From Lentisphaerota bacterium (GTDB taxonomy: Bacteria; Verrucomicrobiota; Kiritimatiellia; PWTM01), in the NCBI GenBank assembly GCA_016873715.1, contig VGWF01000048.1:1-33431 (forward strand): 33,431 nt of DNA, given 5' to 3'. Every line of letters begins with the position of its first letter. The stretch's first letter is position 1. Position numbers and translations under genes: made by a program. Below the pieces are notes generated by a model. It saw nothing but the letters and a program-made list of their open reading frames with translations, searched no databases and was not told the DNA's origin. Of this stretch, positions 1,015-25,371 are shown one piece after another.

Positions 1015-1710
1015 ATGAAGCCATCACCTCTCCAACTCCTCACCGCCCTGCTGCTCGCGCCGCCGGCCCCGCTGCACGCCGCCGAACCTGCGCCGTCCAT
1101 CCACGAGACCTTCGACGCACCGTTCGACGCCACGCGCTTCCTCACGCCCATTCCGAACAAGAACACCGAGGTGCGCGACGGCGTCTTGTGGACGCGCGGC
1201 TCGAGCGGCGGCAAATACCCGCCGATGGTTTATCTCCCGGTGCAGGGCAGGGACCTCACGATCTCGTTCCGCTACCGCCACCTCGCCGCGGGCGGCTGGC
1301 TGTGGTTCTTCGTGGATGGCGATGACGGCTTCGGCAGCGAGGATCACATGCTGCGCGTGAAGCTGCTGCGTGACGGCGTGCAGTTGCAGGTCGATGCCCA
1401 CTCGAAAGACGCCAATCATCCGATGCGGCAAAACACCGGCCGCCCGGCGGATCCGAAAAGCGGCGCTTACCGGCTGAACGAAATCCTGCCACTCGAAAAG
1501 GTCGATTTGACCGCCAACCTCTGGCGTGAGGTGAAACTCGTCTTCCGCGGCGACGAGGTCATCATCAAGCTGGATGGCACGACGTGGTCCAAGACGCTCA
1601 AACGAGCCAATTTCAACGCCGCCAAGCGCAAACTCCTCTGGATGCAGAACGGCGGCAACCAAGGGATCGAACTCGATGAGATCCGTGTCACGTCCAACAT
1701 CACCCAGTAA
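1015..1710 (+). CDS. Secreted concanavalin-A-like (lectin/glucanase fold) protein
   Basis: A 231-residue exported protein. The signal peptide (residues about 1-23) has the cluster-wide core LLTALLLAPPAPLHAA. The mature part starts at a typical jelly-roll opening (HETFDAPFDATRF). It continues through strands such as LTISFRYRHL and WLWFFVDG to the closing LDEIRVTSN, a pattern seen in LamG-like and 3-keto-disaccharide-hydrolase-like beta-sandwich proteins. No catalytic residues can be assigned. It may bind or modify a carbohydrate outside the cytoplasm. It sits 3 nt after the aldolase gene and 13 nt before the first sulfatase, which fits one operon. Exact family uncertain. Confidence 0.7.
   Translation: MKPSPLQLLTALLLAPPAPLHAAEPAPSIHETFDAPFDATRFLTPIPNKNTEVRDGVLWTRGSSGGKYPPMVYLPVQGRDLTISFRYRHLAAGGWLWFFVDGDDGFGSEDHMLRVKLLRDGVQLQVDAHSKDANHPMRQNTGRPADPKSGAYRLNEILPLEKVDLTANLWREVKLVFRGDEVIIKLDGTTWSKTLKRANFNAAKRKLLWMQNGGNQGIELDEIRVTSNITQ
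1039..1067 (+). repeat. Signal-peptide-coding block, copy 1
   Basis: 29 nt within the signal peptide of the lectin-fold gene. It differs at one position (1064) from the block at 4546, 6658 and 8256, including the same CTC/CTG choice at every other leucine codon. Confidence 0.8.
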
Positions 1711-1723
1711 TGAAGATTGGACG

Positions 1724-3082
1724 ATGAAGCCCGCCCTCGCCCTCCTCGCCGCCCTTCTGGTCGCGCCGCTGGCCGCGCTGCACGCCGCCGATGCGCCCAG
1801 GCCCGCGGCCAAACCCAACATCATCTACATCCTGGCGGATGATTTCGGTCTGCCGGACATCGGGTGTTATGGCTCGGCTTACAAGACGCCGCATCTCGAC
1901 AAGCTGGCGGCGGGTGGGACGCGCTTTGAGTTTTGTTTCGCTGCGCCGCTGTGCGCTCCGTCGCGGGCGATGGGTATGTTCGGGCGTTATGGCTTCCGCA
2001 CAGGGGTGACCGACAACGGTCTCGGCGCGGCCGCCACGCCGCAGGGCGAGGTTTGCATCGCCAAGGTGCTCAAGCAGGCCGGTTACGCCACCGCTGTGGC
2101 CGGGAAGTGGTCGGACCTGGAATACCTCGTCACCCGGGAAGACGCCGCGAAGTGGGGCTTCGACGAGTTCATGATCTGGGGCGAGCACTGGGAGGAGGAA
2201 GATGGCAAGCAGACCGGACGCGCCCGCTACTGGGGCCCGGACTACAACCACAACGGCAAGATCCTCAGCGGCGACACGACCAAGTTCGGCCCCGACCTGC
2301 TGCACGGCTTCGTCGTGGACTTCATCCGCCAGCGCCGGGACCAGCCGTTCTTCGTCTATTACCCCACGCCGATGATTCACTACAAGCTGCAGCGCACGCC
2401 CGACAGCACGGGCGGGAAGCCGGACCTGCACGCGGACAACATCGCCTATCTCGACAAGCTCGTCGGCAAGCTCGTGGCCGAACTCGACAGCCTGAAGCTG
2501 CGGGAAAAGACGCTCATCGTCTTCGTCGGCGACAATGGCTCCACCAAAGGCGCGCACACCGTCCATGGCCGCCCGGTTCATGGCGAGAAAGGCGAACTCA
2601 ACGAAGGGGGCTGCCGCGTGCCGCTCATCTTCAACTGGCCCGGCACCACGCCGGTCGGCCGGGTCTCGAAGGATCTCGTGAGCCTCACCGACTTCTTCCC
2701 GACTTTCACCGCGCTCGCCGGCGGCACCCTGCCCACCGGCGTCACGCTCGACGGCCACAGCCTCGCCCCGCAAGCCCTGGGCCAGCCCGGCCAGCCGCGC
2801 GAGTGGGTCTATGTGCAGTTGCGAAGCGACCGCTACGTTCGCGATGCCCGCTGGAAGCTCACGCACACGGGCGACTTCTTCGACATGAAGGAAGCCCCCT
2901 GGCAGGAGATCCCCGTCGCCGCCAACACCACCGATGCAGAAGCCCGATCCGCCCGCACCCGCCTGAAGACTGCCCTCGATGACCTGATCGCCCAGGACCC
3001 GAACAAGGATGCCGCCGCCAATCCGGCTCCAGTGGCACCTGAACCACCCGCCAAGGAGAAGAGGAAGCAAAAGGACCAGTGA
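1724..3082 (+). CDS. Secreted sulfatase with altered active-site motif
   Basis: A 452-residue arylsulfatase-type (alkaline phosphatase fold) protein, exported by a signal peptide ending near ALHAA (residues 18-22). Metal ligands Asp39-Asp40 (ILADDFG) are present. So are the formylglycine motif core Cys77-Ala-Pro-Ser-Arg, His219, Asp270-Asn271 (VGDNG) and Lys289. Two departures stand out: the usual LTGR after CxPSR reads MFGR, and the near-invariant KWHLG motif reads KWSDL, so Ser130 replaces the expected histidine. The C-terminus (about residue 428 on) is a low-complexity Pro/Lys/Glu tail. I chose the ATG at 1724 because it restores the conserved MK...LLAALLVAPLAALHAA leader. The stop overlaps the next sulfatase start as GTGA. 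It may be a sulfatase with unusual specificity or a related phosphohydrolase. Confidence 0.88.
   Translation: MKPALALLAALLVAPLAALHAADAPRPAAKPNIIYILADDFGLPDIGCYGSAYKTPHLDKLAAGGTRFEFCFAAPLCAPSRAMGMFGRYGFRTGVTDNGLGAAATPQGEVCIAKVLKQAGYATAVAGKWSDLEYLVTREDAAKWGFDEFMIWGEHWEEEDGKQTGRARYWGPDYNHNGKILSGDTTKFGPDLLHGFVVDFIRQRRDQPFFVYYPTPMIHYKLQRTPDSTGGKPDLHADNIAYLDKLVGKLVAELDSLKLREKTLIVFVGDNGSTKGAHTVHGRPVHGEKGELNEGGCRVPLIFNWPGTTPVGRVSKDLVSLTDFFPTFTALAGGTLPTGVTLDGHSLAPQALGQPGQPREWVYVQLRSDRYVRDARWKLTHTGDFFDMKEAPWQEIPVAANTTDAEARSARTRLKTALDDLIAQDPNKDAAANPAPVAPEPPAKEKRKQKDQ
1745..1773 (+). repeat. Signal-peptide-coding block, copy 2
   Basis: 26 of 29 nt match the consensus block. A 34-nt stretch (1764-1797) that runs past it is identical to 3119-3152 in the next sulfatase gene. 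Confidence 0.75.
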
Positions 3083-4389
3083 AGACCTCGCTGCAACTCC
3101 TCACCGCCCTTGTCCTGACGCCGCTGGCCGCGCTGCACGCCGCCGATGCGCCGCCCGACAAGCCCAACGTGCTGCTCATCCTTGCGGACGATCTTGGCGT
3201 GGAGTGTCTTTCGAGCTACGGTGGAACCTCGCATCCGACGCCGAGCCTCGACCGTCTTGCGAAGGAAGGGATGCGATTCACGCATTGTTTCGCGAATCCG
3301 TTGTGCTCGCCCTCGCGCGGGCAGCTCCTGACCGGGCGCTATCCGTTTCTGAACGGGCTGAAGGTCGTCCTCGCCAACAAGAGCCAGGAGGACATCTACC
3401 TTCGTCCCGACCAGCCGAGTTTCGCGCGCCAGCTCAAGCAGCATGGCTACGCCACGCAGATCGTCGGCAAGTGGCATCTGTCGCTGGAGCACAAACACAA
3501 CACCATACGTGACTTCGGATTCGACCACTACCAGACGTGGACCATCTTCGACGACCAAGGCCGGAAGACCACGCGCTACTGGAGTCCTTATCAAATGCGG
3601 GACGGGCGGATCATCGCCGCCGAGGTCAACGACCGCTACGGACCCGACGTTGACCTGGAATTCCATCTCGATTTCATCCGGGCCTGTGCGAAGGGCAGAA
3701 CACCGTTCCTGGCCTTCTACTCGACCTACCTGCCGCACTACCCGTGGGAACCCACACCTCACAGCAAGGAGAAGTCCTACCGCGCGCCCAACGCAGCCCA
3801 CAAGGGTGACGCGAAGTACTTCCCGGAGATGGTCGCCTATCTCGACCGGCAAATCGGTTCGATGCTCCAGTTGCTCGACGAACTCGGCATCGCCAGCCAT
3901 ACGATCGTCCTCTTTCTCGCCGACAACGGCACCGACAGCGGGCTCCAGAACATGTGGGGCGACGGCAAAGCGATCGCGGGTGGAAAAGGCACGATGACCG
4001 ATCGCGGCACCCGCGTTCCGCTGCTCGTGCGCTGGCCGGGGCGGATCCAAGCCGGCAGAACCTGCGACGATCTCGTCGACCTTTCGGACTTCCTTCCGAC
4101 CCTCTGCGAACTCACTGGAGCCAAGTTGCCCGACGCAAGAATCCATGGCCAGTCCTTCGCGCCACAGCTGCTCGGGAAACCCGGCCAGCCCCGCGAGTGG
4201 GTTCACATTCAGAACGCGAACGACCGGCAGGTCCGCAACCGCGACTACATGCTGAACAACAAGGGCCAACTGCGCCGCGTCGTCCAACTGTGGGAGGCCC
4301 CGGCCCAGCCCGATGCGAACCGAGAACCGGAAAAGGAAGCTGCCGCCCGCACGAAGTTGCAGGCCGTCTTCGACGAGTTGGATCGATGA
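3079..4389 (+). CDS. Secreted sulfatase
   Basis: A 436-residue sulfatase with a GTG start overlapping the preceding stop (GTGA); translation from GTG gives the conserved leader MKTSLQLLTALVLTPLAALH. Active-site elements are all present: Asp37-Asp38 (ILADDLG), Cys76-Ser-Pro-Ser-Arg followed by GQLLTGR, Lys131 and His133 (GKWHLS), His220 (LPH), Asp282-Asn283 (ADNG) and Lys303. The cysteine should be matured to formylglycine, which hydrolyses a sulfate ester, here most likely on a polysaccharide or its oligosaccharides. It is a paralogue of the upstream sulfatase: both share the motif GQPREW near the C-terminus and adjacent signal-peptide DNA. The substrate is not predictable without a subfamily assignment. 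Confidence 0.93.
   Translation: MKTSLQLLTALVLTPLAALHAADAPPDKPNVLLILADDLGVECLSSYGGTSHPTPSLDRLAKEGMRFTHCFANPLCSPSRGQLLTGRYPFLNGLKVVLANKSQEDIYLRPDQPSFARQLKQHGYATQIVGKWHLSLEHKHNTIRDFGFDHYQTWTIFDDQGRKTTRYWSPYQMRDGRIIAAEVNDRYGPDVDLEFHLDFIRACAKGRTPFLAFYSTYLPHYPWEPTPHSKEKSYRAPNAAHKGDAKYFPEMVAYLDRQIGSMLQLLDELGIASHTIVLFLADNGTDSGLQNMWGDGKAIAGGKGTMTDRGTRVPLLVRWPGRIQAGRTCDDLVDLSDFLPTLCELTGAKLPDARIHGQSFAPQLLGKPGQPREWVHIQNANDRQVRNRDYMLNNKGQLRRVVQLWEAPAQPDANREPEKEAAARTKLQAVFDELDR
3100..3128 (+). repeat. Signal-peptide-coding block, copy 3
   Basis: 24 of 29 nt match the consensus block. The 34 nt at 3119-3152 are identical to 1764-1797. Confidence 0.7.
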
Positions 4390-4420
4390 GTCGCAGCCCT
4401 AGAAGAGCCGCGGAGTGCGT

Positions 4421-4505
4421 TTTCCATGGCTTGGAAGCCCCCGCAGCTGGAGTCTCCAGCGATTGGAAGACCAGGAGGCACTGGGTTCCGATAGCTGGAA
4501 AGGGT
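4421..4505. repeat. TTCCA/TGGAA inverted-repeat array
   Basis: The 120-nt gap between the second sulfatase and the next gene is filled by half-sites of one small palindrome. TTCCA at 4422 faces TTGGAA at 4431, CTGGAG at 4447 faces CTCCAG at 4454, TTGGAA lies at 4463, and TTCC at 4486 faces CTGGAA at 4495. The forward half-sites are spaced 16, 16 and about 32 nt. The piece at 4446-4460 is a perfect 15-nt inverted repeat. It could form hairpins in the mRNA or bind a dimeric regulator. It resembles TTCCAA/TTGGAA intergenic arrays that I associate, from memory only, with Kiritimatiellota/Lentisphaerota genomes. Confidence 0.6.
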
Positions 4506-4509
4506 CACT

Positions 4510-6627
4510 ATGAATGAAGCAACCATGAAGGCCCCCCTCCCCCTGCTCACCGCCCTGCTGCTCGCGCCGCTGGCCGCGCTGCATGCCGCGGAGAGCAGGA
4601 TTGACCGACAGGCGCTGGTGACGCGGCACAGTGTTGAGTTGGAACAGATTGCCCCGAAGTCGGGGTTGCAGATCGGGAACGGAGACTTCGCGTTTACCGC
4701 CGATGTGACCGGGTTGCAGACGTTCTACGGGTACACCTTGTCGAACTGGGGCTGGCACGAAGAATCGTTGCCGCCCGGCATGAAACCGGAGGACCGGAAG
4801 CGGACTGAATTCGTGACGCACGGAAGGAGCCGAAACTACCTGGCTCCGCACCAGCAACCCGAGCTGGCGCGCTGGCTCAATGACAATCCGCATCGAGCGA
4901 GCCTGGGACGGTTGAGCTTCGTGACCGGACCGGACAGCCGACCGCTGAACCCATCGGATCTGCAGCACATCCGGCAGCGGCTGGAATTGTGGAGCGGGCT
5001 GCTGGTCAGCGAATTCGAGTTGCACGGCAAGCCGGTGCGGGTGGAAACCGTCTGTCATGCGGCACGGGACGTCGTGGCCGTGAAGGTCGTTTCCCCCCTG
5101 TTGACGTCTGGCGAATTGGGCGTGCTGATGGATTTTCCGTATCCGGTCCCGAAAGGCAACGATTGGGAAAAGCCGGACGCCCATCAAACAGACCTGGCGC
5201 GCAGCGCTGACCGTCGCGCTGAACTGGTGCGCAAAGCCGATGCGCTGACCTATCGTGTGGCACTGGCCTGGTCGGAGGGTGCGGCGGGGCGCAAAGAAGC
5301 GGAATCGAAGCGTCATGCGTACCGCGTTTCCGTTGAAGGACGGGACACGCTGGCGTTGATCTGCGCCTATTCCGCCAAGCCGGTCGCGGATGCCTTGCCG
5401 ACGTTCGAGGAGGTGAGAGCTTCCTCGGCGAGCATGTGGGCGGCGTATTGGACTGCCGGCGGCGCGATCGACCTCTCGGCCAGCAAGGATGCGCGCTGGA
5501 AGGAACTGGAGCGGCGGATCGTTCTTTCGCAATACCTCATGCGCGTGAACTCAGCGGGCTCAATGCCACCACCCGAAATCGGGCTCTATGGCATCGACGT
5601 TTGGCGCAGCAAGTTCCACCTCGAGATGACGGCCTGGCACGGCGCGCACTTCATGCTCTGGGACCGATCCGAATGCGTGCAAGGCTGGGTGCGCTGGTTC
5701 AATGACGTCGGCCTGCCGTCAGCACGACGCGAGGCGCACGCCGAAGGGTGGAAGGGAGCGAAATGGCTGAAGACCCCGGATCCCTTCGGCCGCTGGGAGA
5801 GCTGGGATCACGGCCCCAACCGGGTCACGCAAAACGCCCATCCGTTCTTCTGGGCCGAGCTGTCCCATCGCCAGCATCCGACCCGAGAAACGCTCGACAC
5901 GTGGAAGGACATCGTCTTCGAGACCGCCGCAATGATGGCCGACTTCATGGCCTGGGATGAAGCAACGCAGCGGTACATCATGGGGCCGCCGGTGATGAGT
6001 GGTGCGGAACACAACAGTGGATTCGACTGCTGGAATACCACCAGTGAGTTGAACTACTGGGCGATGAGCCTGGACATCGCCCAGAGATGGCGTGAACGGC
6101 TCGGCCTGCGGCGCGAACCGTCCTGGGACCGCATCCTCGCCAAGCTGTCGCGGCCACCGGTGGTCGACGGGGTGTATGTCGATGCCGAATCTCATCCCCA
6201 GGTCTGGAACCAGAACGGTTCCCGATGGGTGCGTCCGGCATGGTTCGAGGTATACGGATGCATCCGGGGGCCCATGATCGAGCCGGCCATCATGGAGAGG
6301 ACCTATGAACGGGCGGCCCGGGAATTGCGCGCGGGCGAATGGAAGGGCAATCTCTGGGGCTGCGACTATCCGATGATGGCGATGACGGCAGCCCGGCTGG
6401 GCAAGCCGGGCGACGCCGTGGACTGGCTGCTCAACAAGGCGAGCATGAACGGGTACTCCGAGAGCGGTTTCTGCGGCGGTTGGTACCTGCCCGGCAATGG
6501 CGGTCTTCTCTGGGCCGTGGCGATGATGGCGGCCGGGTGGGATGGCTGTCCCGACAGGCACGCGCCCGGGTTTCCCGATGACGGGAGTTGGAATGTGAAG
6601 TGGGAGGGCTTGAAGAAGGCCCCGTGA
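4510..6627 (+). CDS. Secreted six-hairpin (GH65/GH95-like) glycoside hydrolase
   Basis: A 705-residue exported protein. After the common signal peptide core (LLTALLLAPLAALHAA) comes a beta-sandwich N-terminal domain opening with LQIGNGDFAFTADVTGLQTF (residues about 54-73), a phrase characteristic of GH65/GH95-type (alpha/alpha)6 enzymes. The helical part holds HLEMTAWHGAHFMLWDR (about 383-399), SGFDCWNTTSELNYW and GGWYLPGNGG near the end. I could not fix the catalytic acid, so the exact family and substrate stay open. The ATG at 4510 follows a good Shine-Dalgarno (GGAAAGGG, 5 nt away). The ATG at 4525 would give the same MK-start leader as its neighbours and is an equal alternative. The next gene follows after 9 nt. 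Confidence 0.75.
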   Translation: MNEATMKAPLPLLTALLLAPLAALHAAESRIDRQALVTRHSVELEQIAPKSGLQIGNGDFAFTADVTGLQTFYGYTLSNWGWHEESLPPGMKPEDRKRTEFVTHGRSRNYLAPHQQPELARWLNDNPHRASLGRLSFVTGPDSRPLNPSDLQHIRQRLELWSGLLVSEFELHGKPVRVETVCHAARDVVAVKVVSPLLTSGELGVLMDFPYPVPKGNDWEKPDAHQTDLARSADRRAELVRKADALTYRVALAWSEGAAGRKEAESKRHAYRVSVEGRDTLALICAYSAKPVADALPTFEEVRASSASMWAAYWTAGGAIDLSASKDARWKELERRIVLSQYLMRVNSAGSMPPPEIGLYGIDVWRSKFHLEMTAWHGAHFMLWDRSECVQGWVRWFNDVGLPSARREAHAEGWKGAKWLKTPDPFGRWESWDHGPNRVTQNAHPFFWAELSHRQHPTRETLDTWKDIVFETAAMMADFMAWDEATQRYIMGPPVMSGAEHNSGFDCWNTTSELNYWAMSLDIAQRWRERLGLRREPSWDRILAKLSRPPVVDGVYVDAESHPQVWNQNGSRWVRPAWFEVYGCIRGPMIEPAIMERTYERAARELRAGEWKGNLWGCDYPMMAMTAARLGKPGDAVDWLLNKASMNGYSESGFCGGWYLPGNGGLLWAVAMMAAGWDGCPDRHAPGFPDDGSWNVKWEGLKKAP
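4546..4580 (+). repeat. Signal-peptide-coding block, copy 4
   Basis: 35 nt identical to 6658-6692; the first 29 nt are also identical to 8256-8284. The genes that carry these copies are otherwise unrelated in fold. Confidence 0.85.
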
Positions 6628-6636
6628 AAGACTGAG

Positions 6637-8187
6637 ATGAAACCGCGACTCAAGTTCCTCACCGCCCTGCTGCTCGCGCCGCTGGCCGCGCTACACGCTG
6701 CTGAAACGGCCACACCGGACAAACGCGAACCAGAGGAAGCTCTCGTTCTGAACTATCACCTGATGCATCCCGGTGGTGGGAGTGCGCCGGGCGATCCCAA
6801 TGCGGCCTTCCACCTCGATGGCACATACCATTTACACTACATCCTCAAGCACCCGTGGCAGGGGAAGACGTCCTTTTCCTTCGTCCACGTCACCAGCCCT
6901 GACATGCTGCACTGGACCTGGCAGCCGACGAGACTCCAGCCGTCGTTCGCCGGCCACGGCATGTTCAGCGGCACTGGTTTTATCACGAAAGAAGGCCAAC
7001 CCGCCGCCATCTACCACGGCGAGGCCTCGGGCCGGAACCAAATCGTGATTGCGAAGGACCGAAAGTTGTCCGCTTGGGAGAAACCGTATCCCGTCGAGGT
7101 CAAGAACGCCGACGGCAGCGAAGCGATAATCCGCCGACACTGGGATCCCGATTGTTTCCTCATCGGCGACACCTACTACGCGATTTCCGGCGGAGGCAAT
7201 CCACCGTTGATGAAATCGCAGGACTTGAAGAACTGGACGTTCATCGGCGATTTTCTGCACCACGACCTGCCCGACGTGACGATCGGCGAGGACATCTCAT
7301 GCGCGAACTTTTTCCAACTCGGCGGCAAGTGGATGCTGCTCTGCATCAGCCATGCCCTCGGCTGCCGCTACTATCTTGGCGATTGGGACGCGAAGACCGA
7401 GCAGTTCATCCCACAGAAACACGGCCGGATGAATTGGCGGCGGGAGGACCAAAGTATCTACGGCGGGAATCCGTGGCGCGTGGATTTCTTTGCGCCCGAA
7501 ACCCTGCTCACACCCGATGGCCGCCGCGTCATGTGGGCCTGGCTCGCCACGCTTGGCCAGTCGGATGGAAAGTTTGACTACCGCACCATCCAGTCTCTGC
7601 CAAGAGAACTCAGCCTGCCGGACGACGGCATCCTGCGCATCAAACCCCTCCGTGAACTCGAAACGCTGCGCCACGAACCCGTCACGCTCAGCGACATCAA
7701 CATCCGCGAAGGCGCCCGTAACGTGCTGCTGGACGCCGCGCCCGCCGGACCGAAAATCGCCACTCTCCCCGGCTACGCAGTCGAACTCCGCATCACCATC
7801 GCCCGCGAGCAAGCTGAGCGGAGGCTCTTCGGATTCACGCTGTTTGCCGACGGCAAAGGTGGTGGCCTGCCGATTATGTTCCGTCCCGAAAACAGCACAC
7901 TGCGCGTCGGCGCCGCCGAAGCGCCTTTCTCCATCGCCGGCCTCCCAAAGGGCGAAGATGTGGAGTTGCGCATCTTCATCGACAAATACCTCGTCGAAGT
8001 TTTCGCCAACGGCCGGCAAGCCATGGTCGCATCCTTTGCTGATTATCGCGGCCAGCCCGATGTGAACGCCTTCACCGTTCGCGAACGAATGACCATCAAG
8101 AAGATCGAAATCTGGAAGCTCAAGCCCACCAACGAGGGCTTCCGCGAAGCGCAGAAGAACCGCATCTGGGAACCGAAGTCAAAATGA
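6637..8187 (+). CDS. Secreted glycoside hydrolase family 32 enzyme
   Basis: A 516-residue exported GH32 protein. The N-terminal five-bladed propeller contains the nucleophile motif variant GDPNA (Asp53) and an RDP-like transition-state stabiliser in HWDPD (Asp170). The candidate acid/base is Glu218 in GEDISC, at the place of the usual EC(P) motif. Spacings of 117 and 48 residues are close to those of characterised GH32 invertases. The C-terminal beta-sandwich carries the family hallmark LRIFIDKYLVEVFANG (about residues 446-461). GH32 enzymes hydrolyse beta-fructosides such as levan, inulin or sucrose; divergent PVC members may have other substrates. The common signal peptide precedes the mature protein (KFLTALLLAPLAALHAA). 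The stop overlaps the next start as ATGA. Confidence 0.87.
   Translation: MKPRLKFLTALLLAPLAALHAAETATPDKREPEEALVLNYHLMHPGGGSAPGDPNAAFHLDGTYHLHYILKHPWQGKTSFSFVHVTSPDMLHWTWQPTRLQPSFAGHGMFSGTGFITKEGQPAAIYHGEASGRNQIVIAKDRKLSAWEKPYPVEVKNADGSEAIIRRHWDPDCFLIGDTYYAISGGGNPPLMKSQDLKNWTFIGDFLHHDLPDVTIGEDISCANFFQLGGKWMLLCISHALGCRYYLGDWDAKTEQFIPQKHGRMNWRREDQSIYGGNPWRVDFFAPETLLTPDGRRVMWAWLATLGQSDGKFDYRTIQSLPRELSLPDDGILRIKPLRELETLRHEPVTLSDINIREGARNVLLDAAPAGPKIATLPGYAVELRITIAREQAERRLFGFTLFADGKGGGLPIMFRPENSTLRVGAAEAPFSIAGLPKGEDVELRIFIDKYLVEVFANGRQAMVASFADYRGQPDVNAFTVRERMTIKKIEIWKLKPTNEGFREAQKNRIWEPKSK
6658..6692 (+). repeat. Signal-peptide-coding block, copy 5
   Basis: 35 nt identical to 4546-4580, at the corresponding codons of the GH32 gene. 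Confidence 0.85.
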
Positions 8188-10121
8188 ACTCCACCATCCC
8201 CGTTGCCTGCGCCCATTTGAAATCAGCTTGGCAGGCTGTCTTCCTTCGGTCGGCTCTCACCGCCCTGCTGCTCGCGCCGCTGGCGGCGCGGCATGCGGCC
8301 GGGACGACTTCACAACCGCCCGTCACCTTCCCCCAGGATGGCGGCGTGCTCGATGTGCGCGAGTTCGGGGCCGTGGCCGACGACGACCAGGATGACACGG
8401 CCGCCATCCAGAAGGCGCTCGACCAGCATCCCAACGGCAACCGGATCATCTACCTGCCGCCGGGCACGTGGATCGTGCGCGACACCTTGAAGTGGCCGCA
8501 GGGCGGGCGGGGCGGCGTGGAGCAGAAGCGCACGATCCTCCAGGGTGCGGGGCCGGCGTACACGACGCTGCAACTGCCCGACGCCACGCCCGGCTTCACC
8601 GATGCCGCCAAAGCCAGGGCGATGATCTGGACCGGCAACCGGCCGGCCCAGCGCTTCCGCAATGCGGTACGCGACCTGACCATCGCCGTCGGCAAGGACA
8701 ACCCCGGGGCCATCGGCCTGCAGTTCAACGCCAGCAACCAGGGCACGATCCGCAACGTCGCCATTCGCGCGACCGAGGGATCCGGCGCCATCGGTCTCGA
8801 CATGGGCTTCACCGACGAGATCGGGCCGCTGCTCGTGAGGAACCTGGAGGTCGCGGGCTTCGAGGTCGGGATCGTCACGAAATGGCCGGTGAATTCCGCG
8901 ACGTTCGAGCAGGTGAAGCTGATCGGACAGCGGAGCTACGGCTGGCGGAATTACCACCAGATGATCTTCGTGCGCGGCCTCGACAGCGAAAACGCCGTGC
9001 CCGCGATCTTCAACGAGAAGGACTCCTGGGGCACGGTCACGCTGGTGGACTCCCGCATCGTCGGCAAAGGCGCCGGTCCGAAGACCCCGGGCATTCTCAA
9101 CCAGCGGCAGATGTACCTGCGCAATGTCGAGATCAGCGGGTACGCGAAGTCCGTGGACCACGCGGACAAGGGCCGGGACAAGGGCGACGTGGAGCCCGCG
9201 GGCGTGGTGCGCGAGGACACCTCCCACGCCAACGTCACCAGCCTGTTCCGCGAGATTCCGGACAGTACCTTCGCGACGGCGGGCGAGGTCAAACATCTTC
9301 CGGTCAAGGAGTCGCCCGGGATTCCCTGGGGCGACGTGGCGAAGGACTGGGCCAGCCTGGCGAAGTTCGGCGGCGATCCGGAGGGCAAGGCCGATTCCAG
9401 TCCGGCGCTCCAGGCGGCCATCGACTCGGGCGCGAAGACCGTCTACCTGCCGGCGGGCGCGCGGTTCCGGTTCGACGGCGAGGTGCAGATCCGGGGTCCG
9501 GTCGAGCGGATCATCGGGCTGGAGGGCCGCTTCACCACCGAGGGCCGGGCGGTATGGCGGCTGGTCGATGGCAAGCACCCGAGCGGACTGCGCGACGCCC
9601 CGGCGGTGATCATCGAGCGGTGCAGCGGGGACAGCGGCGGCCACGGCATCGTCATCCGTCACGAATCCGCGCGCGCCATGGTGGTCAGTTCGTGGATCGG
9701 CGCCCACGTGGAAGGACGGGGGAGCGGCGACCTCTTCCTGGACGACTTCTGCGGCCGCCTCGACCTCCTCGAACCCGGCCAGAGCGCCTGGTGCCGGCAG
9801 CTCAACACCGAGCGCAAGGGCACCATGCTGCGGAACAACGGCGGGAAGCTGTGGATCCTCGGCATGAAGACGGAGAAGATCGGCACCATCATCGAGACCG
9901 CCAACGGTGGCGTCACTGATGCGGCGGGCATCTTCATCTACTCGAATCAGGGCTGGGACGAGACCGTGCCCGCCTTCGTGATCCACAACAGCACCGCGAT
10001 CCTGGCGGGCATCAACGAGCGCAACTTCAACCGCCGGCCGGTGTCCCTGTGGTTCCGCGAAACCCAGGGCGAAGAGACCCGCGAGTCGAAATCGCCGGCC
10101 TGGGTGTACCTGAGCCGGTAA
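8184..10121 (+). CDS. Secreted double beta-helix protein (pectate-lyase-3/GH55-like)
   Basis: A 645-residue protein with two pectate-lyase-superfamily openings. The first is VREFGAVADDDQDDTAAIQKAL (about residues 55-76). The second is the run from FGGDPEGKADSSPALQAAI to KTVYLPAGA (about 396-424). Two such modules in tandem are the layout of GH55 exo-beta-1,3-glucanases, so a beta-glucan hydrolase is one possibility, but no catalytic residue is assigned. The gene is a clear paralogue of the one at 16911 (shared RQLN...GGKLW-LG-K near the C-terminus). The leader is odd: from ATG 8184 the signal core LTALLLAPLAARHAA is preceded by about 23 unrelated residues. A TTG at 8217 would give a normal MK-start leader. 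The 3' end (LSR-stop) is part of the duplicated junction block. Confidence 0.8.
   Translation: MNSTIPVACAHLKSAWQAVFLRSALTALLLAPLAARHAAGTTSQPPVTFPQDGGVLDVREFGAVADDDQDDTAAIQKALDQHPNGNRIIYLPPGTWIVRDTLKWPQGGRGGVEQKRTILQGAGPAYTTLQLPDATPGFTDAAKARAMIWTGNRPAQRFRNAVRDLTIAVGKDNPGAIGLQFNASNQGTIRNVAIRATEGSGAIGLDMGFTDEIGPLLVRNLEVAGFEVGIVTKWPVNSATFEQVKLIGQRSYGWRNYHQMIFVRGLDSENAVPAIFNEKDSWGTVTLVDSRIVGKGAGPKTPGILNQRQMYLRNVEISGYAKSVDHADKGRDKGDVEPAGVVREDTSHANVTSLFREIPDSTFATAGEVKHLPVKESPGIPWGDVAKDWASLAKFGGDPEGKADSSPALQAAIDSGAKTVYLPAGARFRFDGEVQIRGPVERIIGLEGRFTTEGRAVWRLVDGKHPSGLRDAPAVIIERCSGDSGGHGIVIRHESARAMVVSSWIGAHVEGRGSGDLFLDDFCGRLDLLEPGQSAWCRQLNTERKGTMLRNNGGKLWILGMKTEKIGTIIETANGGVTDAAGIFIYSNQGWDETVPAFVIHNSTAILAGINERNFNRRPVSLWFRETQGEETRESKSPAWVYLSR
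8256..8284 (+). repeat. Signal-peptide-coding block, copy 6
   Basis: 29 nt identical to 4546-4574 and 6658-6686, but fused to a different upstream coding sequence, so the match starts abruptly at the block. Confidence 0.85.
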
Positions 10122-10187
10122 TTGCCCTCTGAGGCGCCTACCCACTATGATAGCCGCTCTGAAGCATGTGAAAGAAGAACCAACATG
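10108..10187 (+). repeat. Duplicated 80-nt gene-junction block, copy A
   Basis: This block holds the last codons of the double beta-helix gene (YLSR-stop), the intergenic spacer, a purine-rich Shine-Dalgarno and the ATG of the next gene. Aligned by eye to 11446-11525 it has the same length with no gap and about 55 of 80 matches. The strongest cores are ACCTGAGCCGGTA and CCCACTATGAT. Confidence 0.8.
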
Positions 10188-11426
10188 TGCGTGTCACCGT
10201 CAACCAGACCTCAGGTCCGAACCAGATTGATCAGATGTAGGATCATGCACACGTCGTCAACCTGCGGCAGACTCGGGGGCCGGATGGCGGGAGCGAGCGG
10301 TCCGACTTCGTTCGTGGCATTTCTGTTCGCCGCCACGATGGCTCTTCCGTCGTCGTACGCCGAATACAAGATCTTCTGGGGCGACATTCATGGTCACACC
10401 AGCCACTCCGACGGCAAGGGCAGCTTGGACGATTACTTCACCTATGCTCGCGATGTCTCCAAATTGGACTTCGTGATTGTTACCGACCACGACTATGGAA
10501 ACGGTAAGCCCGCGTGGCGGATGCCCCAAGAAACCTGGATGCTGACGCAAGACAAGGCGGACGAGTTCACGGTCGACGGCAAGTTCGTCGCCATTGCGGG
10601 CTACGAGTGGACCTCGCAAGCCAAGTACTGGACGGACGTCGGGCCCAATAAGCCTTCCGAGCGGCTGTTCCCGGGTGCGCCGAAATTCTACAACCACAAG
10701 AACGTGTACTTCCCGACGCGACTCGACGACATCTTCAGCGCCAAGGACACCGCCTCCTACACTCCGGACATGCTAGCGGCGGCCGTGCGGAAACAGGGCG
10801 GGTTGATTCAGAACAATCATCCCGACGCTGGTCCCGAAGGGCAGGACCAGTGGGATTACTCGCCAGACCACTACCCCGTGATCACGAACACTGAAATCCG
10901 CCCCGACACGTTGCGGCACGAGGGCAAGACGTACCCGCTCGATAGCGAGAGGATGGTCCGTGAGTTCCTGAGCCGGGGCGGCAAGACCGGTTTTGTGCTG
11001 GGCTCCGACACGCACGAGGGTCAGCCTGCGGCGCGGACGGCCGTGCTGGCCAAGGAACTCACGCGCAACGCCATCTTCGATGCGTTGCGACATCGCCGCA
11101 ACTACGCGGTGTCGCACGCCCGGATCGAACTCGACGTTCAGATCAACGGCCATCGGATGGGCGAGGAGTTCGTCACAGCGGACAAGCCGGCGATCACGGT
11201 GTCCGTCACAGGCACCGCCCCGATCGCCGAACTAGTGATCATTCGAGACGGTTCCGTGTTAAGCCGCCTTACACCCAACACGCCGCAGGTCAAGCTCACC
11301 TATCGCGACGAATCGTTCCAACAATCGAGCTACTACTATGTCCGCGTCGTCCAGAGTGATGCAGACGCGCACGGCAATCCCTCGCACGCCTGGTCCAGCC
11401 CGATTTGGGCGAAGAAAGGACTTTGA
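10185..11426 (+). CDS. Secreted PHP-domain metallohydrolase (CehA/McbA, DUF3604-like)
   Basis: About 413 residues. The PHP metal-binding motifs are in order: GDIHGHTSHSDG, VTDHDYGN, GYEWTS, IQNNHPDAG and LGSDTHEGQ, followed by a C-terminal beta domain (AELVIIRDG through YYYVRVVQ). Related CehA/McbA proteins include carbaryl and other ester or phosphoester hydrolases; the natural substrate here is unknown. The protein looks exported: SFVAFLFAATMALPSSYA is a hydrophobic core followed by a cleavage-like site. The start is uncertain. ATG 10185 ends the duplicated junction block and has AAAGAAG upstream, but gives a long N-region. ATG 10245 and ATG 10284 give shorter leaders. It stands between two beta-helix genes whose flanks show duplication. 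Confidence 0.83.
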   Translation: MCVSPSTRPQVRTRLIRCRIMHTSSTCGRLGGRMAGASGPTSFVAFLFAATMALPSSYAEYKIFWGDIHGHTSHSDGKGSLDDYFTYARDVSKLDFVIVTDHDYGNGKPAWRMPQETWMLTQDKADEFTVDGKFVAIAGYEWTSQAKYWTDVGPNKPSERLFPGAPKFYNHKNVYFPTRLDDIFSAKDTASYTPDMLAAAVRKQGGLIQNNHPDAGPEGQDQWDYSPDHYPVITNTEIRPDTLRHEGKTYPLDSERMVREFLSRGGKTGFVLGSDTHEGQPAARTAVLAKELTRNAIFDALRHRRNYAVSHARIELDVQINGHRMGEEFVTADKPAITVSVTGTAPIAELVIIRDGSVLSRLTPNTPQVKLTYRDESFQQSSYYYVRVVQSDADAHGNPSHAWSSPIWAKKGL

Positions 11427-11445
11427 ATCCCGGCAGCATCGATCC

Positions 11446-11525
11446 ACCTGAGCCGGTAGTTACATACCGAGCGGCCTGCCCACTATGATGGCCGGCTTGG
11501 AGTACACGCAAGGAAGCACGACATG
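11446..11525 (+). repeat. Duplicated 80-nt gene-junction block, copy B
   Basis: This is the gapless second copy of 10108-10187. It lies after the PHP gene stop and ends exactly at the ATG of the single beta-helix gene. The opening still reads HLSR-stop in frame, matching the YLSR-stop end of the double beta-helix gene, although no such gene precedes it. It therefore carries a vestige of a lost 3' gene end. Confidence 0.8.
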
Positions 11526-12944
11526 CGCACCCGACTGCAAGTGAACCTGCTCGCTGTCCTCCTGCCCGCCGCCGCCGTTTCGGCGGCGCCCGTCACCACC
11601 ACGGATGAACTCCTCGCCGCCATCGCGGGCGCCGGGCCCGGGGCTGTGATCGAACTGGCGGGAGGCACGTTCCGCCTCACCCGAACGCTTGATGTCCCGG
11701 GTGGAATCACGCTCAAGGGCGCGGGCATGGACAAGACCGTCCTCACCCACGTGGAATCCTGGAAGCCTTCTCCCGAATCCCTACCCGACCCGGAGATGCG
11801 GCTGGAGGGGCTGGACACCGATGCCTACCTGATCCGCATCCGGCGGGATACCCAGGGGGTCACCCTCTCGGACATGACCCTGCAAGGACCGCAGCTGCAC
11901 GGGGCGATCTTCGCGTGGTTCCACACCGGCCTGCACCTGCAGCGCCTGCGGATCAAGGACACTCTATGGTGCGGCGTGCGCACGTTCGGATTGAAACAGG
12001 CGAAGGTTCACGACTGCGAGTTCATCAACGCGGGCGGGCGATGGGAGAAGGGCCAACCCGGGCTGAAAGGTGGCATCACTGGCGGAGGGATCTTCGCTTG
12101 CTGGACAAGCGATTCCGAGATCTGGAACAACCGCTTCCTGGAAACGCGCAGCGAGCCGAACGAGCACTACTACGGCATCAAGGGCCGCGAAGCGAGGCGC
12201 GTGCGGATCCATCACAACACCATCCTGACGAACTTCTCCATCGAGTTCCCGTTTGAGAACGACGAGGATGTCGAGATCGACCACAACGTCTGCAGCGGCA
12301 CTGTTTCAATCCCCAAGCATGCCGGCGGGCCCCTGGCGAAGAGCGGACGCACCTTCCACATCCATCACAACTGCTTCCGCAACAGCTACAGCATCGAGTT
12401 CGTGCGGAACGGCGTGGAGATCGACCACAACCTCTTCGACTTCGATCCGCAGGCGGACCATGGCAACCTGATTTCAGCCTTCGGCAAGGCCGCCGCGCCC
12501 GGTCCGGCGAGCTTCCACAACAACCTCGTGAGCAATCCCGGACGCGGCGTGATGTGGATGAACGAGCCGTACGGAAAGCTGGACGTGCGGAACAACCACA
12601 TCATCGCCCGCACGACCAAGACGCCGCGCACCGAGGGGCTCTTCGGCTTCAACGAGAAGAGCGGCTTCGCGGAGTTCCGCTTCGCGGACAACATCATCGA
12701 ATGCGAAGGCACGCCGCGCCCTCTCTTCCGCAACGACGCCAGCGGGGCGGCGACCGTGGAGAACAACCGGCTTGTGAACATCACGGACACCGCGCGCTAC
12801 CCCAACAAGGTCGCCGGAAGGCCGCAAGGGCCGGAGCAGCCGCTTCAGTTCCGGTGCGGCGTAAACGGGGAGATGTCAGTGGACGGCTGGAAGACGGGCG
12901 CGGCCCGGGACGCAGCGTATCCAGGCGCGGGTTCCCCGCCATGA
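11523..12944 (+). CDS. Secreted right-handed parallel beta-helix protein
   Basis: A 473-residue exported protein; residues 1-22 form a signal peptide (NLLAVLLPAAAVSAA). The rest has regularly spaced beta-helix rungs: GAVIELAGGTFRLTRTLDVP, GVTLSDMTLQG, ARRVRIHHNTIL, DVEIDHNVCSG, FHIHHNCFRNS, GVEIDHNLFDF, KLDVRNNHII and TVENNRLVN. The His-Asn pairs at the turns are typical of NosD/PL6-like helices. It could be a polysaccharide lyase or a carbohydrate-binding scaffold; no catalytic residues are assigned. ATG 11523 is supported by AAGGA 9 nt upstream. The stop overlaps the following sulfatase (ATGA). A decayed copy of its 3' end lies at 16774-16914. Confidence 0.85.
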   Translation: MRTRLQVNLLAVLLPAAAVSAAPVTTTDELLAAIAGAGPGAVIELAGGTFRLTRTLDVPGGITLKGAGMDKTVLTHVESWKPSPESLPDPEMRLEGLDTDAYLIRIRRDTQGVTLSDMTLQGPQLHGAIFAWFHTGLHLQRLRIKDTLWCGVRTFGLKQAKVHDCEFINAGGRWEKGQPGLKGGITGGGIFACWTSDSEIWNNRFLETRSEPNEHYYGIKGREARRVRIHHNTILTNFSIEFPFENDEDVEIDHNVCSGTVSIPKHAGGPLAKSGRTFHIHHNCFRNSYSIEFVRNGVEIDHNLFDFDPQADHGNLISAFGKAAAPGPASFHNNLVSNPGRGVMWMNEPYGKLDVRNNHIIARTTKTPRTEGLFGFNEKSGFAEFRFADNIIECEGTPRPLFRNDASGAATVENNRLVNITDTARYPNKVAGRPQGPEQPLQFRCGVNGEMSVDGWKTGAARDAAYPGAGSPP

Positions 12945-14281
12945 GTCGCAGCGCACCATTTCTCGCCGCCTTGCTGCTCGCTCCGCTGGCCGTACCGCAC
13001 GGTGCCAATGCGGAGCCCGCGAGGCCCAACATCGTTCTGATCCTGGCCGACGATCTGGGCTATGGATCTCTCGGTTGCTACGGCAATGCGGAGGTCGCAA
13101 CGCCGCACATCGACCGCCTGGCCCGCGGCGGCGTGCGTCTGACCGACTTTCACAGCAACGGAGCGCTCTGCTCGCCGACCCGTGCGGCGCTGCTGACGGG
13201 CCGTTACCCGCAGCGATGCGCGGAGGTGCCCGACGCGGAGCTTTCCCCCGTGTTCCGCGAGCAGCGCAGGGCGAATCCCGTCCAGCGTTGGGCGTGGGGC
13301 CTCTGCGCGACGGAACGGACGATGCCGGCCGTGCTGAAACAGGCGGGCTACCGCACCGCCCTCATCGGCAAGTGGCATCTCGGGTATGACGCGAAGTTCC
13401 ACCCGATGAACTATGGCTTCGACGAGTTCCGCGGCTTCGTGGGCGGCAACGTGGACTACCACACGCATGTCGCGGGCTACGGCACGAAGGAGCTGGACTG
13501 GTGGAACGATCGGCGGATCGCGAACGAGGCCGGCTATTCCACCGATCTGCTCACGACGTATGCCGCCGAGTTCATCGCGCGGAACAAGGACGCCCCGTTC
13601 TTCCTCTACCTGGCTCACGGGGCCGTCCACACGCCGCTGCAAGGACGCGAGTCCGCCCGCAAGCGGTCGCCGGTGGACACGTACAAGGAGATGGTCGGCA
13701 CGCTGGACGACTCCGTCGGCATGGTCGTCGCCGCACTCTGCAAGCATAGGCTGGAAACCAACACTCTCGTGATCTTCTGCTCGGACAACGGCCCGGCCGC
13801 GCCACCCGGCTTCGCAGCGAACGCCGGCCTGCGCGGAAAGAAGGGCACGCTCTTCGAAGGCGGGCACCGCGTGCCGTTCATCGCCTCGTGGCCGGGCACA
13901 ATCGCTCCGGGGACGACCAGCGACGCGGCGGCGATGAGCATGGACCTGTTCCCCACCTTCGCGGCCGTGGCGGACGCTCGCCTGCCGGCCGACCGGCAGC
14001 TGGACGGCATCGACCTCCTGCCCCTGCTCAAGGGGGGGGCCGCCCCCGCACCGCGCGACCTGCACTGGCAATCCGGCGAAGACTGGGCGGTGCGGCGCGG
14101 CTCATGGAAGCTGGCGGGGAAGCGCAACAAAGCCCTCTCGCTCATCAACCTCCAGCACGACATCGGAGAGGCGGACAACCTTCTGGAGCGCGAACCCGCG
14201 CTGGTCAAGGAACTGATGGAAGCACACGCGCACTGGGTCCAATCGATCGGATCGCGGAGCCGTGAACATGAGACACCCTGA
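12941..14281 (+). CDS. Secreted sulfatase
   Basis: A 446-residue arylsulfatase-type enzyme with an intact active site. It has Asp37-Asp38 (ILADDLGYG), Cys77-Ser-Pro-Thr-Arg followed by AALLTGR, Lys144 and His146 (GKWHLG), His230 (HGAVH), Asp282-Asn283 (SDNGP) and Lys301 in GKKGTLFEGG. This lies closer to the classical arylsulfatase A / GalNAc-6-sulfatase-like type than the two sulfatases at 1724-4389. The signal peptide has the cluster core LAALLLAPLAVPHGANA. It begins inside the stop of the beta-helix gene (ATGA) and its 3' end overlaps the next gene by 14 nt, so the three genes are tightly coupled. It should release sulfate from a glycan after formylglycine maturation by an enzyme encoded outside this window. 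Confidence 0.94.
   Translation: MSRSAPFLAALLLAPLAVPHGANAEPARPNIVLILADDLGYGSLGCYGNAEVATPHIDRLARGGVRLTDFHSNGALCSPTRAALLTGRYPQRCAEVPDAELSPVFREQRRANPVQRWAWGLCATERTMPAVLKQAGYRTALIGKWHLGYDAKFHPMNYGFDEFRGFVGGNVDYHTHVAGYGTKELDWWNDRRIANEAGYSTDLLTTYAAEFIARNKDAPFFLYLAHGAVHTPLQGRESARKRSPVDTYKEMVGTLDDSVGMVVAALCKHRLETNTLVIFCSDNGPAAPPGFAANAGLRGKKGTLFEGGHRVPFIASWPGTIAPGTTSDAAAMSMDLFPTFAAVADARLPADRQLDGIDLLPLLKGGAAPAPRDLHWQSGEDWAVRRGSWKLAGKRNKALSLINLQHDIGEADNLLEREPALVKELMEAHAHWVQSIGSRSREHETP
12962..12990 (+). repeat. Signal-peptide-coding block, copy 7
   Basis: 26 of 29 nt match the consensus block, in the third sulfatase gene. Confidence 0.7.
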
Positions 14282-16769
14282 CGCCGCCGCCGGGCAACAC
14301 ATCCGCGCGCTGCTCGCCACGCTCCTGCTCGCGCCGCCGGCCGCCCTGCGCGCATCGGACCCACCGGCCGGCCTGCCCGCGCCGCGGGGGGAGCAGGCGG
14401 TGTTCGTCATCCGGGACGAGGTCGCCGTGACCAACCCGCCGCGGTTCGGCGTGAACTTCGACCCGCCGGGCATGTCGCACTGGAACACGGAGCCGTGGCA
14501 CAACCAGTGGTGGCTGGGGCCGAACCCGAATCCCATCACCGCGCGCCATAAGGGCACGGCCACCGGCGGGAGCGCCACGACGCTCGACGACGACAAGTCG
14601 CCCGGGATTGGCTACTACGACGTTTTCCGCGACGGCTTTTTCGACGGCGGCACGGCGGTGGTGTACCGGCTGGAGGGCGGCGTCCTGCGCGTGCTGCGCG
14701 AGGGCCGCATCGCCCGCTACCTCGCGTCAAGGGCCGGACCGAACCGCGTCGAGTTCGCGGAGCCCGGCCCGGAGGTGCGGGCGGGCGACGAGTATCTGCT
14801 GCACGCGACGCGGATGGACATCCCGGCCGCGTCCACGCGCACCTGGGCCGGCCGGCCGTGGTGGTGCTTCGGCGGGCTCGAGCTGGGCGGGCCGGCAGAG
14901 AAGCTGCATGCGCAGGGCGTGCGGGTCGGCTTGTCGGCCGACGCCCCGCCGGGCGGCGGCGGCGCATCGTTCGCGCTCACGCTGCCCGCCGGCTGGACGA
15001 ACGGCCGGGTTGCGGTCGGGCAGTGGCTGCTCTCGGCCGAGCAGGCGGACTGGCCGCGCTTCCGCCCCGGCCGCACCTACTCGCTGCGGGTCTGGCTCAA
15101 GCAAAACGGCCTGGCCGACGGCGCGGCCCACGTGAAGGTTGCCAGTCTGACGGGCGCGACCTTCCGCGCGACGGGCGAATGGGCGGAGTACCGCCTCGAA
15201 TTCGCCGCCGCGCCGCCGCGCGGGCCGGGCGCGGAGCGGCTCGAGATCGGGATCGCGGGGGCCGGCACGCTGCTCATCGACAACCTGACCATCGTCGAGC
15301 GGGACGGCCCGCCGCCGTACGGCTTCTACCCGCACGTCATCGAGACGCTCGAGCGGTTCCGGCCCAGCACGCTTCGCCTGTGGTCGCTGCAGGAGAACCG
15401 CGGGTTCGGCAAGGCGCTGGACGATGCGCTGGGTCCGCCCGAGGAGTCGAACCTCACCTTCCGCGAGCTGAACGGCGCGCACACCACGGATCCGCTGGGC
15501 CTGCATCGCGAGCTGGAGCTGTGCGCGCGGGTCGGGGCGGATCCCTGGATCATCACCTCCACGATGTTCACGCCGGCGGAGCAGCAAAACCTCATCGAAT
15601 ACCTGGCCGGCCCGCCCGGCTCGCCGCATGGCCGGAAGCGCGCGGCCTGGGGGCGGGCGGCGCCGTGGACCGAGGCCTTCCGGCGGATCAAGATCGAGAT
15701 GGGCAACGAGACGTGGAACGGCATGTTCGCCCCGCAGCACTTCAGCGGCCGCGGCGCGGTCTACGGCGCCCTGTGCGAGCTGATGTTCCAGCGCATGAAG
15801 GCGAGCCCGCACTTCCGCGCCGGGCAGTTCCAGTTCGTGGTCAACGGCTGGGTCGCCCAGCCCGGCAACGACAAATGGGGCTACGGAGCGAACGCGCTGC
15901 GGCACGCGCCGTCGGCCCAGGCGGTGGACATCGCCTACTACACGGGCGGCTGGGACGCGGTGGGCCTGATGAAGGCCGGCAGCGAGGCGGAGGGCTGGAT
16001 GAACGCGCTGACCTACTCGCGCCGCATGCTGCTGCCGCGGGCCCGCGAGTTCCGCCGCACCGCGGAGGCCATCGCGGCGGAGCAGGGCCGGCCCGGCGCG
16101 ATCGAGAGCCTGGTCTACGAGGCCGGACCCGGGTACACGCTCCCCGGCCCCGGCAAGTTCAACCGCCGGGAGCAGGAGGAGGGCAAGTCGCTCGCGCACG
16201 CCATCAACGCGCTCGACATCTTCCTGTCCAACCTGCGCGAGGGCTACGGCGACCAGTCGTTCTTCACCTTCCTCAACGGCCACTACTGGTCCTCGCACAA
16301 CCGGACCTGGGGCGAGCATATCGCCTGGAAGGCGCTCGGCCTGCGCAACGCGCTGCTCGCCGGCGACCTGCTCGCCTGCGAGGCGCGCGAGATGGTCACG
16401 ATCGACCTGCCGGAGACGCAGGCCGACCTGGTGTCGCAGCGCAACAGCGCGGACCGCAATACGCGCTCCTTCCCGCCCGTACCCGACCTGCCGTTGGTGG
16501 ACTGCTATCCCTTCCGCGACGGGCCGCGCCACGCGATCCTTCTGCTCTCCCGCCGGCTGGACGGCCCCACGCGCGTCACGCTGGAGCTGCCCTACGACCC
16601 CCGGCCGGCTTACACGCTGCACACCCTGGCCGCTCCCGGCCCCGGCGCTCACAACATCGACGAGGAGGCGGTGCGGGTCGAGCGCGTGGAGAAGACCGGA
16701 ATGGAGAGGCGGTTCACGCTGCAGGTCCCGCCCCACGCCGCCGTGGTGTTGGTCAACGAGGCGAAGTGA
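14268..16769 (+). CDS. Secreted GH51-like (clan GH-A) glycosidase with carbohydrate-binding module
   Basis: An 833-residue exported protein. After the signal peptide (LLATLLLAPPAALRA) comes an N-terminal domain of unclear type. A CBM4/9-like jelly roll follows at roughly residues 220-345 (RPGRTYSLRVWLKQNG through LLIDNLTIVE), then a TIM barrel. The barrel has the clan-A acid/base motif GNE at Glu481 (KIEMGNETWNG) and a likely nucleophile Glu618 in YEAGPGY. The closing beta-sandwich has AILLLSRRLDGPTRVTLELP. This is the plan of alpha-L-arabinofuranosidases and related GH51 enzymes, but similarity is distant, so the activity is only suggested. ATG 14268 is preferred to GTG 14262. The gene overlaps the sulfatase by 14 nt. 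GC is visibly higher than in its neighbours. Confidence 0.75.
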   Translation: MRHPDAAAGQHIRALLATLLLAPPAALRASDPPAGLPAPRGEQAVFVIRDEVAVTNPPRFGVNFDPPGMSHWNTEPWHNQWWLGPNPNPITARHKGTATGGSATTLDDDKSPGIGYYDVFRDGFFDGGTAVVYRLEGGVLRVLREGRIARYLASRAGPNRVEFAEPGPEVRAGDEYLLHATRMDIPAASTRTWAGRPWWCFGGLELGGPAEKLHAQGVRVGLSADAPPGGGGASFALTLPAGWTNGRVAVGQWLLSAEQADWPRFRPGRTYSLRVWLKQNGLADGAAHVKVASLTGATFRATGEWAEYRLEFAAAPPRGPGAERLEIGIAGAGTLLIDNLTIVERDGPPPYGFYPHVIETLERFRPSTLRLWSLQENRGFGKALDDALGPPEESNLTFRELNGAHTTDPLGLHRELELCARVGADPWIITSTMFTPAEQQNLIEYLAGPPGSPHGRKRAAWGRAAPWTEAFRRIKIEMGNETWNGMFAPQHFSGRGAVYGALCELMFQRMKASPHFRAGQFQFVVNGWVAQPGNDKWGYGANALRHAPSAQAVDIAYYTGGWDAVGLMKAGSEAEGWMNALTYSRRMLLPRAREFRRTAEAIAAEQGRPGAIESLVYEAGPGYTLPGPGKFNRREQEEGKSLAHAINALDIFLSNLREGYGDQSFFTFLNGHYWSSHNRTWGEHIAWKALGLRNALLAGDLLACEAREMVTIDLPETQADLVSQRNSADRNTRSFPPVPDLPLVDCYPFRDGPRHAILLLSRRLDGPTRVTLELPYDPRPAYTLHTLAAPGPGAHNIDEEAVRVERVEKTGMERRFTLQVPPHAAVVLVNEAK
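14313..14341 (+). repeat. Signal-peptide-coding block, copy 8 (divergent)
   Basis: 24 of 29 nt match the consensus block, inside the leader of the GH51-like gene. Confidence 0.5.
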
Positions 16770-25362: not shown

Positions 25363-25371
25363 GTTGTGACT

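Follow-up and report, generated by a model that had tools for sequence, protein, structure and literature searches.

Nearly identical leader DNA of about 66 nt, running from the start codon to the signal-peptidase site, is common to dozens of unrelated secreted enzymes of lake and groundwater Verrucomicrobiota and apparent relatives. Judged from sequence comparisons, this leader probably acts as a homologous-recombination seam joining horizontally traded single-gene cassettes of secreted carbohydrate-active enzymes. About 40 copies are present in the genome from which the analyzed stretch of 33,431 nt (the window) was taken. The window makes up an entire contig (C48) of this 5.13-Mb, 289-contig genome, which is a MAG like all the genomes considered here. 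The leaders of the window, the genes attached to them, and one block found by homology comparison are as follows.

1015..1083, plus strand: leader with one core mismatch; gene 1015-1710, weakly 3-keto-disaccharide hydrolase/lectin-like
1724..1789, plus strand: leader with three core mismatches; sulfatase 1724-3082
3079..3144, plus strand: leader with five core mismatches; sulfatase 3079-4389
4525..4590, plus strand: leader with exact core; gene 4525-6627, no Pfam family
6060..6701, plus strand: block 90% identical to VHCW01000169.1 (L105)
6637..6702, plus strand: leader with exact core; GH32 gene 6637-8187
8184..8300, plus strand: type B leader, with an extra 48-nt in-frame LKSAWQAVFLRSA ahead of the core; pectate-lyase-like gene 8184-10121
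12941..13006, plus strand: leader with three core mismatches; sulfatase 12941-14281
14268..14357, plus strand: old leader with five core mismatches; gene 14268-16769, no Pfam family
30749..30814, minus strand: diverged leader with six core mismatches; BNR sialidase-like gene 29066-30814

The preliminary description had reported DNA repeats among these signal-peptide codes, and its comparisons are accurate: 4546-4580 equals 6658-6692 over 35 nt and 1764-1797 equals 3119-3152 over 34 nt, both matches being maximal, 4546-4574 equals 8256-8284 over 29 nt, and 1039-1067 differs by one base. The minus-strand copy that it listed is present but weaker (30793-30765, five mismatches in 29 nt). It had also stressed the unrelated folds of the mature proteins. 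The mature parts do differ, but sulfatases account for three of the eight plus-strand genes, and the labels "six-hairpin" and "GH51-like" were not confirmed, the genes at 4525 and 14268 being without a Pfam match. Throughout the source genome, at least 15 unrelated protein families stand behind the leader. They include sulfatases, the formylglycine-generating enzyme domain, GH9, GH32, GH36, GH78, GH106, GH127, GH141, pectate lyases, FAD oxidoreductases, BNR and PQQ propellers, and DUF4838, and several leader genes have no assigned family. Elsewhere in the window (23737-26754), a PSCyt2/PSD1 (DUF1549/DUF1553) gene is followed by a DUF1501 gene, as is typical of PVC bacteria; neither carries a leader.

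By its sequence, the leader is predicted to encode a Sec signal peptide (type I), with a positive n-region, a hydrophobic core, and an A-x-A site. The consensus, MKHTLTLLTALLLAPLAALHA|AD, is in frame, and the core sits seven codons past the start. Conservation ends at the start codon on one side, the border lying at about -3 (ACC ATG) with unrelated sequence further upstream in the different copies, and at the cleavage site on the other. With regard to the terminal inverted repeats and target duplications that would border a transposable element or MITE, comparison of the copies showed no shared sequence flanking the leaders. Compared with the Pfam and NCBIfam profiles, the consensus leader gave no relevant match, with only a sub-threshold chance hit to Defensin_propep.

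Genome-wide counts rest on pattern searches, together with a sampled background of 400 kb; genes were called by a simple codon-likelihood script. With up to three mismatches allowed, the 30-nt core occurs six times in the window versus none in 100 dinucleotide shuffles, and 37 times in the genome, where a reversed-pattern control gave none. A search with a 75-nt consensus detected at least 40 copies, and a degenerate protein-level pattern 35 places, nearly all with identical codons. The copies are confined to a few contigs (about 7 on C2, about 12 on C29, and 8 in the window), mostly in runs of adjacent same-strand genes. In these arrays, leader genes are closely packed and share one orientation, and each mature gene thus lies between its own leader and the leader of the following gene. 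The search for non-coding copies suggested in the preliminary description was fruitful: 35 of 260 leaders are orphan or shortened, their frame closing within 80 codons downstream, and the start codon is missing in 4 of 260. Leaders stopping within 12-36 codons, with no mature domain, were observed in L133 (7415), L097 (7667), and L104 (5225), and further ones of this kind in L105 (599), L134 (7179), and L135 (about 3583, reverse strand). These stop-closed leaders are possibly leftovers of gene loss or failed exchange.

Where two copies share a residue, they use the same codon at a high rate over most of the leader, with variation at codons 3, 5, and 19. At the signal-peptidase site (codons 20-23), the rate drops toward that expected from codon usage. 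As these copies had been picked by DNA similarity, the test was repeated on genes picked by amino-acid similarity alone, in which the histogram of residue matches is bimodal. Clear leader genes, defined by at least 11 of 14 matching residues, carry the consensus codon at 82-88% (about 85%) of codons in the source genome versus 39% expected, and at 67-84% in four genomes of the class. None of the 289 background genes reaches nine matching residues. Codon bias, which the preliminary description had named as what might undo its reading, is thus ruled out as the cause of the block. Differences from the consensus amount to 0.21 per synonymous site versus 0.14 per non-synonymous site, and copies within a genome are about as distant from each other as copies of different genomes. 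Neither RNA (z 0.43) nor DNA structure (z -0.39 and -0.77 for the two strands) gives a fold signal for the leader.

The block search extends well beyond the source genome: the exact 27-mer was found in 86 stretches of other GTDB genomes, on contigs of up to 1.35 Mb. These records are labeled almost exclusively Verrucomicrobia, Opitutae, Akkermansia, Lentisphaerae, Kiritimatiellales, or Planctomycetes (PVC). CALQJI020000036.1 (L125), which holds a PVC-type leader array, is titled Klebsiella pneumoniae, probably a wrong MAG label. An artefact, either codon bias or metagenome misassembly or misbinning at short repeats, is extremely unlikely to account for the block. All records are MAGs, in which repeats invite misjoins, and those from Planctomycetota, being short contigs, may have been misbinned. 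However, besides the rejected codon null, exact repeats between source-genome copies do not exceed 46 nt (median 14), one 78-nt hairpin pair excepted; usual final assembly k-mers exceed repeats of that size; and the block lies on contigs of 0.1-1.35 Mb from independent projects.

Within the class of the window, 12 of 346 genomes carry the leader, with 39 copies in G074, 38 in the source genome, 32 in G075, and 10 each in G013 and G096. It is found in none of the eight genomes of the same family. Three of these leader-less relatives, at least 96% complete, hold 45-60 sulfatases, and the leader was therefore rejected as a requirement for sulfatase export. Two other genomes of the class (G108 and G134, 7-9 Mb) have more than 500 sulfatase candidates each at first look (54 scored) and no leader copy. 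The core 23-mer was not found in IMG/VR, nor the 75-nt block in PLSDB, and a phage or plasmid vehicle was rejected on these grounds.

Leader genes of the source genome have a distinct composition, with 65% GC in a genome of 72% GC. Their GC3 is 0.82 and AAA makes up 26% of their Lys codons, versus 0.94 and 5% in sampled background genes. These values are closer to those of leader genes in G074 and G075, with a GC3 of 0.79-0.80 and an AAA/Lys of 33-34%, and the other genes of these two genomes have the same composition. Along contig C101, GC drops from about 0.72-0.76 to 0.61 where leaders begin, and C2 is 72-73% GC away from its leader end. The leader genes combine the deviant composition and the patchy distribution (12/346 genomes of the class, 0/8 of the same family) that characterize horizontally acquired genes: in the source genome, they are imported foreign DNA. 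In this high-GC genome, genes of higher GC3 have more mismatches in their leaders (rho 0.44-0.48). The relation is the reverse in the lower-GC G096, and no trend is seen in G074 or G075; all these comparisons are post hoc and on small samples. The increase in the source genome reads as decay after import. Gene 14268-16769, behind the old leader, has a native-like GC3 of 0.95.

These observations bear on the selection on RNA that the preliminary description had considered and that we do not retain. Selection on the DNA or RNA sequence, through mRNA targeting, small-RNA pairing, or translation tuning, would fix the leader while genes evolve toward it. The conserved synonymous positions fit this proposal, as does the AAA second codon, which is common at starts in general. 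Nevertheless, we judge it very unlikely, given the lack of a structure signal, the similar rates of synonymous and non-synonymous differences, the sulfatase-rich genomes of the same family and the two with more than 500 candidates that do without the leader, and the divergence of leaders as their genes ameliorate. Furthermore, convergence would leave unexplained the homology breakpoints inside the leader described below.

Some leaders are separated by TTCCAA...TTGGAA palindrome spacers forming a hairpin (RNA fold z -3.5), of which we located the following copies.

L154, 3113-3243: palindrome copy
L149, 11975-12107: palindrome copy
L149, 15074-15197: palindrome copy
L153, 464-593: palindrome copy

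The source genome has five such hairpins (strong copies), beside leaders only, and TTCCA..TGGAA remnants are visible upstream of the leader at 4525..4590. Related palindromes number dozens to hundreds in several genomes of one family (f6) and in G096. They are dispersed genome-wide in G013, G040, G074, G075, G096, and G003. As G040 and G003 have no leader, leader and hairpin do not form a single mobile unit. These spacers resemble REP-type extragenic palindromes, which are dispersed palindromic repeats (PMC3733652); unlike them, the leader itself is translated and not palindromic.

Between genomes, leaders are places where DNA homology breaks off on either side, including positions within the signal-peptide code. 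Gene bodies at 73-94% DNA identity typically begin at -12 to 0 or inside the leader and often end 60 to 80 nt after the stop codon, that is, at the end of the next gene's leader; gene units with leader borders on both sides were also seen. In the window, the block 6060..6701 begins in the 3' part of gene 4525-6627, crosses the intergenic DNA, and takes in the next leader; it breaks off where this leader ends, within the coding sequence of the GH32 gene 6637-8187. Similarity between L149 and L099 likewise ends at the leader end inside a coding sequence. The body of sulfatase 1724-3082 is 90% identical to VHCI01000180.1 (L116), the homology beginning about 35 nt before the start codon. In the source genome itself, the paralogues L152 and L154 are 91-92% identical from the start codon onward, and their upstream DNA is unrelated.

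Of the 532 free homology ends in the complete set of fetched loci, leader zones account for 205 versus 12.9 expected at random (16-fold), and the start zones of other genes for 69 versus 16.2 expected; such per-gene ratios are inflated because the loci were fetched by leader. The comparison of broken with continuous homology is less affected. For leader genes, 60 blocks start at the gene start, 38 enter from upstream and stop inside, and 10 run through, versus 20, 7, and 16, respectively, for genes without leader (p = 0.00017, approximate, like the following values, because the set includes non-independent pairs from the same contig or genome). Homology extends upstream in 8 of 49 leader pairs versus 14 of 33 non-leader pairs (p = 0.012; p = 0.006 for pairs below 92% identity). 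Some breakpoints in tight arrays could lie just before the start codon rather than in the leader.

Leaders are also exchanged on conserved mature genes. The type B leader ends as type A does and has a conserved 48-nt in-frame block (...LKSAWQAVSLRSA) between the n-region and the core; in addition to the window copy at 8184-8300, it was identified at the following places.

L097, 7592-7680: type B leader
L112, 2242-2330: type B leader
L128, L235, L238, L065, and L096: type B leaders

One enzyme has a type B leader in L065 and a type A leader in L069, with bodies 90.7% identical over 2.4 kb. Mature genes 76-81% identical bear either the leader described here or an unrelated signal peptide; this includes window gene 3079-4389, whose 76% identical counterpart in G075 bears an unrelated one. 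The preliminary description had proposed comparing the divergence of leaders with that of mature regions, and the two are decoupled in close homologous pairs. In close pairs (mature part at least 83% identical) with no shared upstream DNA, the leader averages 6.1 points less identical than the mature part, versus a difference of +0.2 in those with shared upstream DNA (p = 0.013, small sample). Several pairs at greater divergence show the opposite, with a leader more similar than the mature part. This pattern is that of leaders taken from a common pool. Against this reading, leader and mature identity retain a weak correlation (rho 0.35).

The preliminary description had attributed the spread of the block to gene conversion or recombination. 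Recombination is borne out by breakpoints clustering at or inside the leader and by leaders swapped on conserved mature genes; gene conversion mainly within one genome is not. Conversion of this kind would spread and homogenize the leader so that new enzymes gain an export signal in place, in keeping with the leader swaps, the orphan copies, and the many copies held by one genome. We consider it rather unlikely: concerted evolution predicts a genome-specific consensus, whereas copies of one genome are about as far apart as copies of different genomes and different families share one consensus, and the leader genes of the source genome are imported. The travelling unit is mostly a leader together with its mature gene, the leader being the seam.

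A dedicated site-specific recombinase or transposase could instead target the leader, as in the Mycoplasma vpma locus or in integrons. Sharp borders, tandem arrays, two leader types, and hairpins beside some leaders are compatible with such an enzyme, but the other data make it unlikely. In a search confined to the general family PF00589, the matches listed for the source genome lie on C155, C200, C74, and C104, which are contigs without leaders, and tyrosine recombinases are not enriched in leader genomes. A linked tyrosine recombinase was therefore rejected for the PF00589 matches listed. In addition, the leader has no inverted repeat or attC-like fold, breakpoints are spread over it, and it is not found in the viral and plasmid collections.

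We infer homologous recombination because there is no linked tyrosine recombinase among those matches and no special leader fold, and because breaks are spread over the leader. Under the seam model, incoming DNA would bring leader-flanked genes, and ordinary homologous recombination within the leader would insert or swap a gene in frame with an export signal. Diverged leaders would recombine poorly, which would keep the circulating pool near one consensus, synonymous sites included, while settled copies would drift. If recombination went on continually in a shared pool, this would account for the single consensus in all these genomes, the similar distances within and between genomes, the synonymous conservation, the fixed borders, and the patchiness. 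The first acquisition of a leader by unrelated genes requires more than a crossover between leaders; our guess is illegitimate replacement of a leader followed by homologous spread. More tentatively, exchange may operate at the community level. Lake and groundwater Verrucomicrobiota, possibly with Planctomycetota, would share a DNA-encoded export tag as a universal adapter, through which flanked enzyme genes insert in frame, and are exported, in array-holding genomes; the adapter would persist since only near-identical adapters recombine.

The repertoires of sulfatases and polysaccharide-degrading enzymes in PVC bacteria are unusually large, which raises the question of how they are assembled. 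If the seam model is true, a shared coding adapter would provide a concrete mechanism by which single secreted-enzyme genes are traded and exported at once, and the synonymous sequence of a signal peptide would owe its conservation to recombination instead of protein function. We found no account of such a leader in the literature searched, a coverage outside which most subscription journals fall. Several known systems share some of its features. Like leader genes, integron gene cassettes are single genes arrayed in one orientation between copies of a DNA repeat and exchanged horizontally. Unlike in integrons, the leader has no attC-like fold at the DNA z-scores given above, and the repeat is the translated 5' part of the gene. 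As to an integrase, none of the matches listed for the general PF00589 family is linked to leader arrays. In Campylobacter fetus, a conserved 5' region shared by the sapA S-layer genes permits RecA-dependent recombination. A conserved 5' region common to several genes is likewise found here, but sapA genes are homologous antigen genes of one genome, whereas leader genes encode non-homologous enzymes across families and genomes. In the Mycoplasma vpma, vsp, and vsa surface-lipoprotein loci, an Xer1-type recombinase encoded in the locus acts at a site located at -1 to -72 upstream of the start codon of related lipoprotein genes, and inversions switch expression within one genome (PMC2268961). 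As in these loci, the place of recombination is conserved 5' DNA of a set of secreted-protein genes, common to all genes of the array. Here, however, the block is the signal-peptide code itself, it precedes unrelated enzymes, exchange takes place between genomes, and the leader arrays contain no tyrosine recombinase among the PF00589 matches listed. As a mark of the seams at which single enzyme genes were swapped between bacteria, the leader resembles a naturally occurring adapter for the trade in secreted enzymes.
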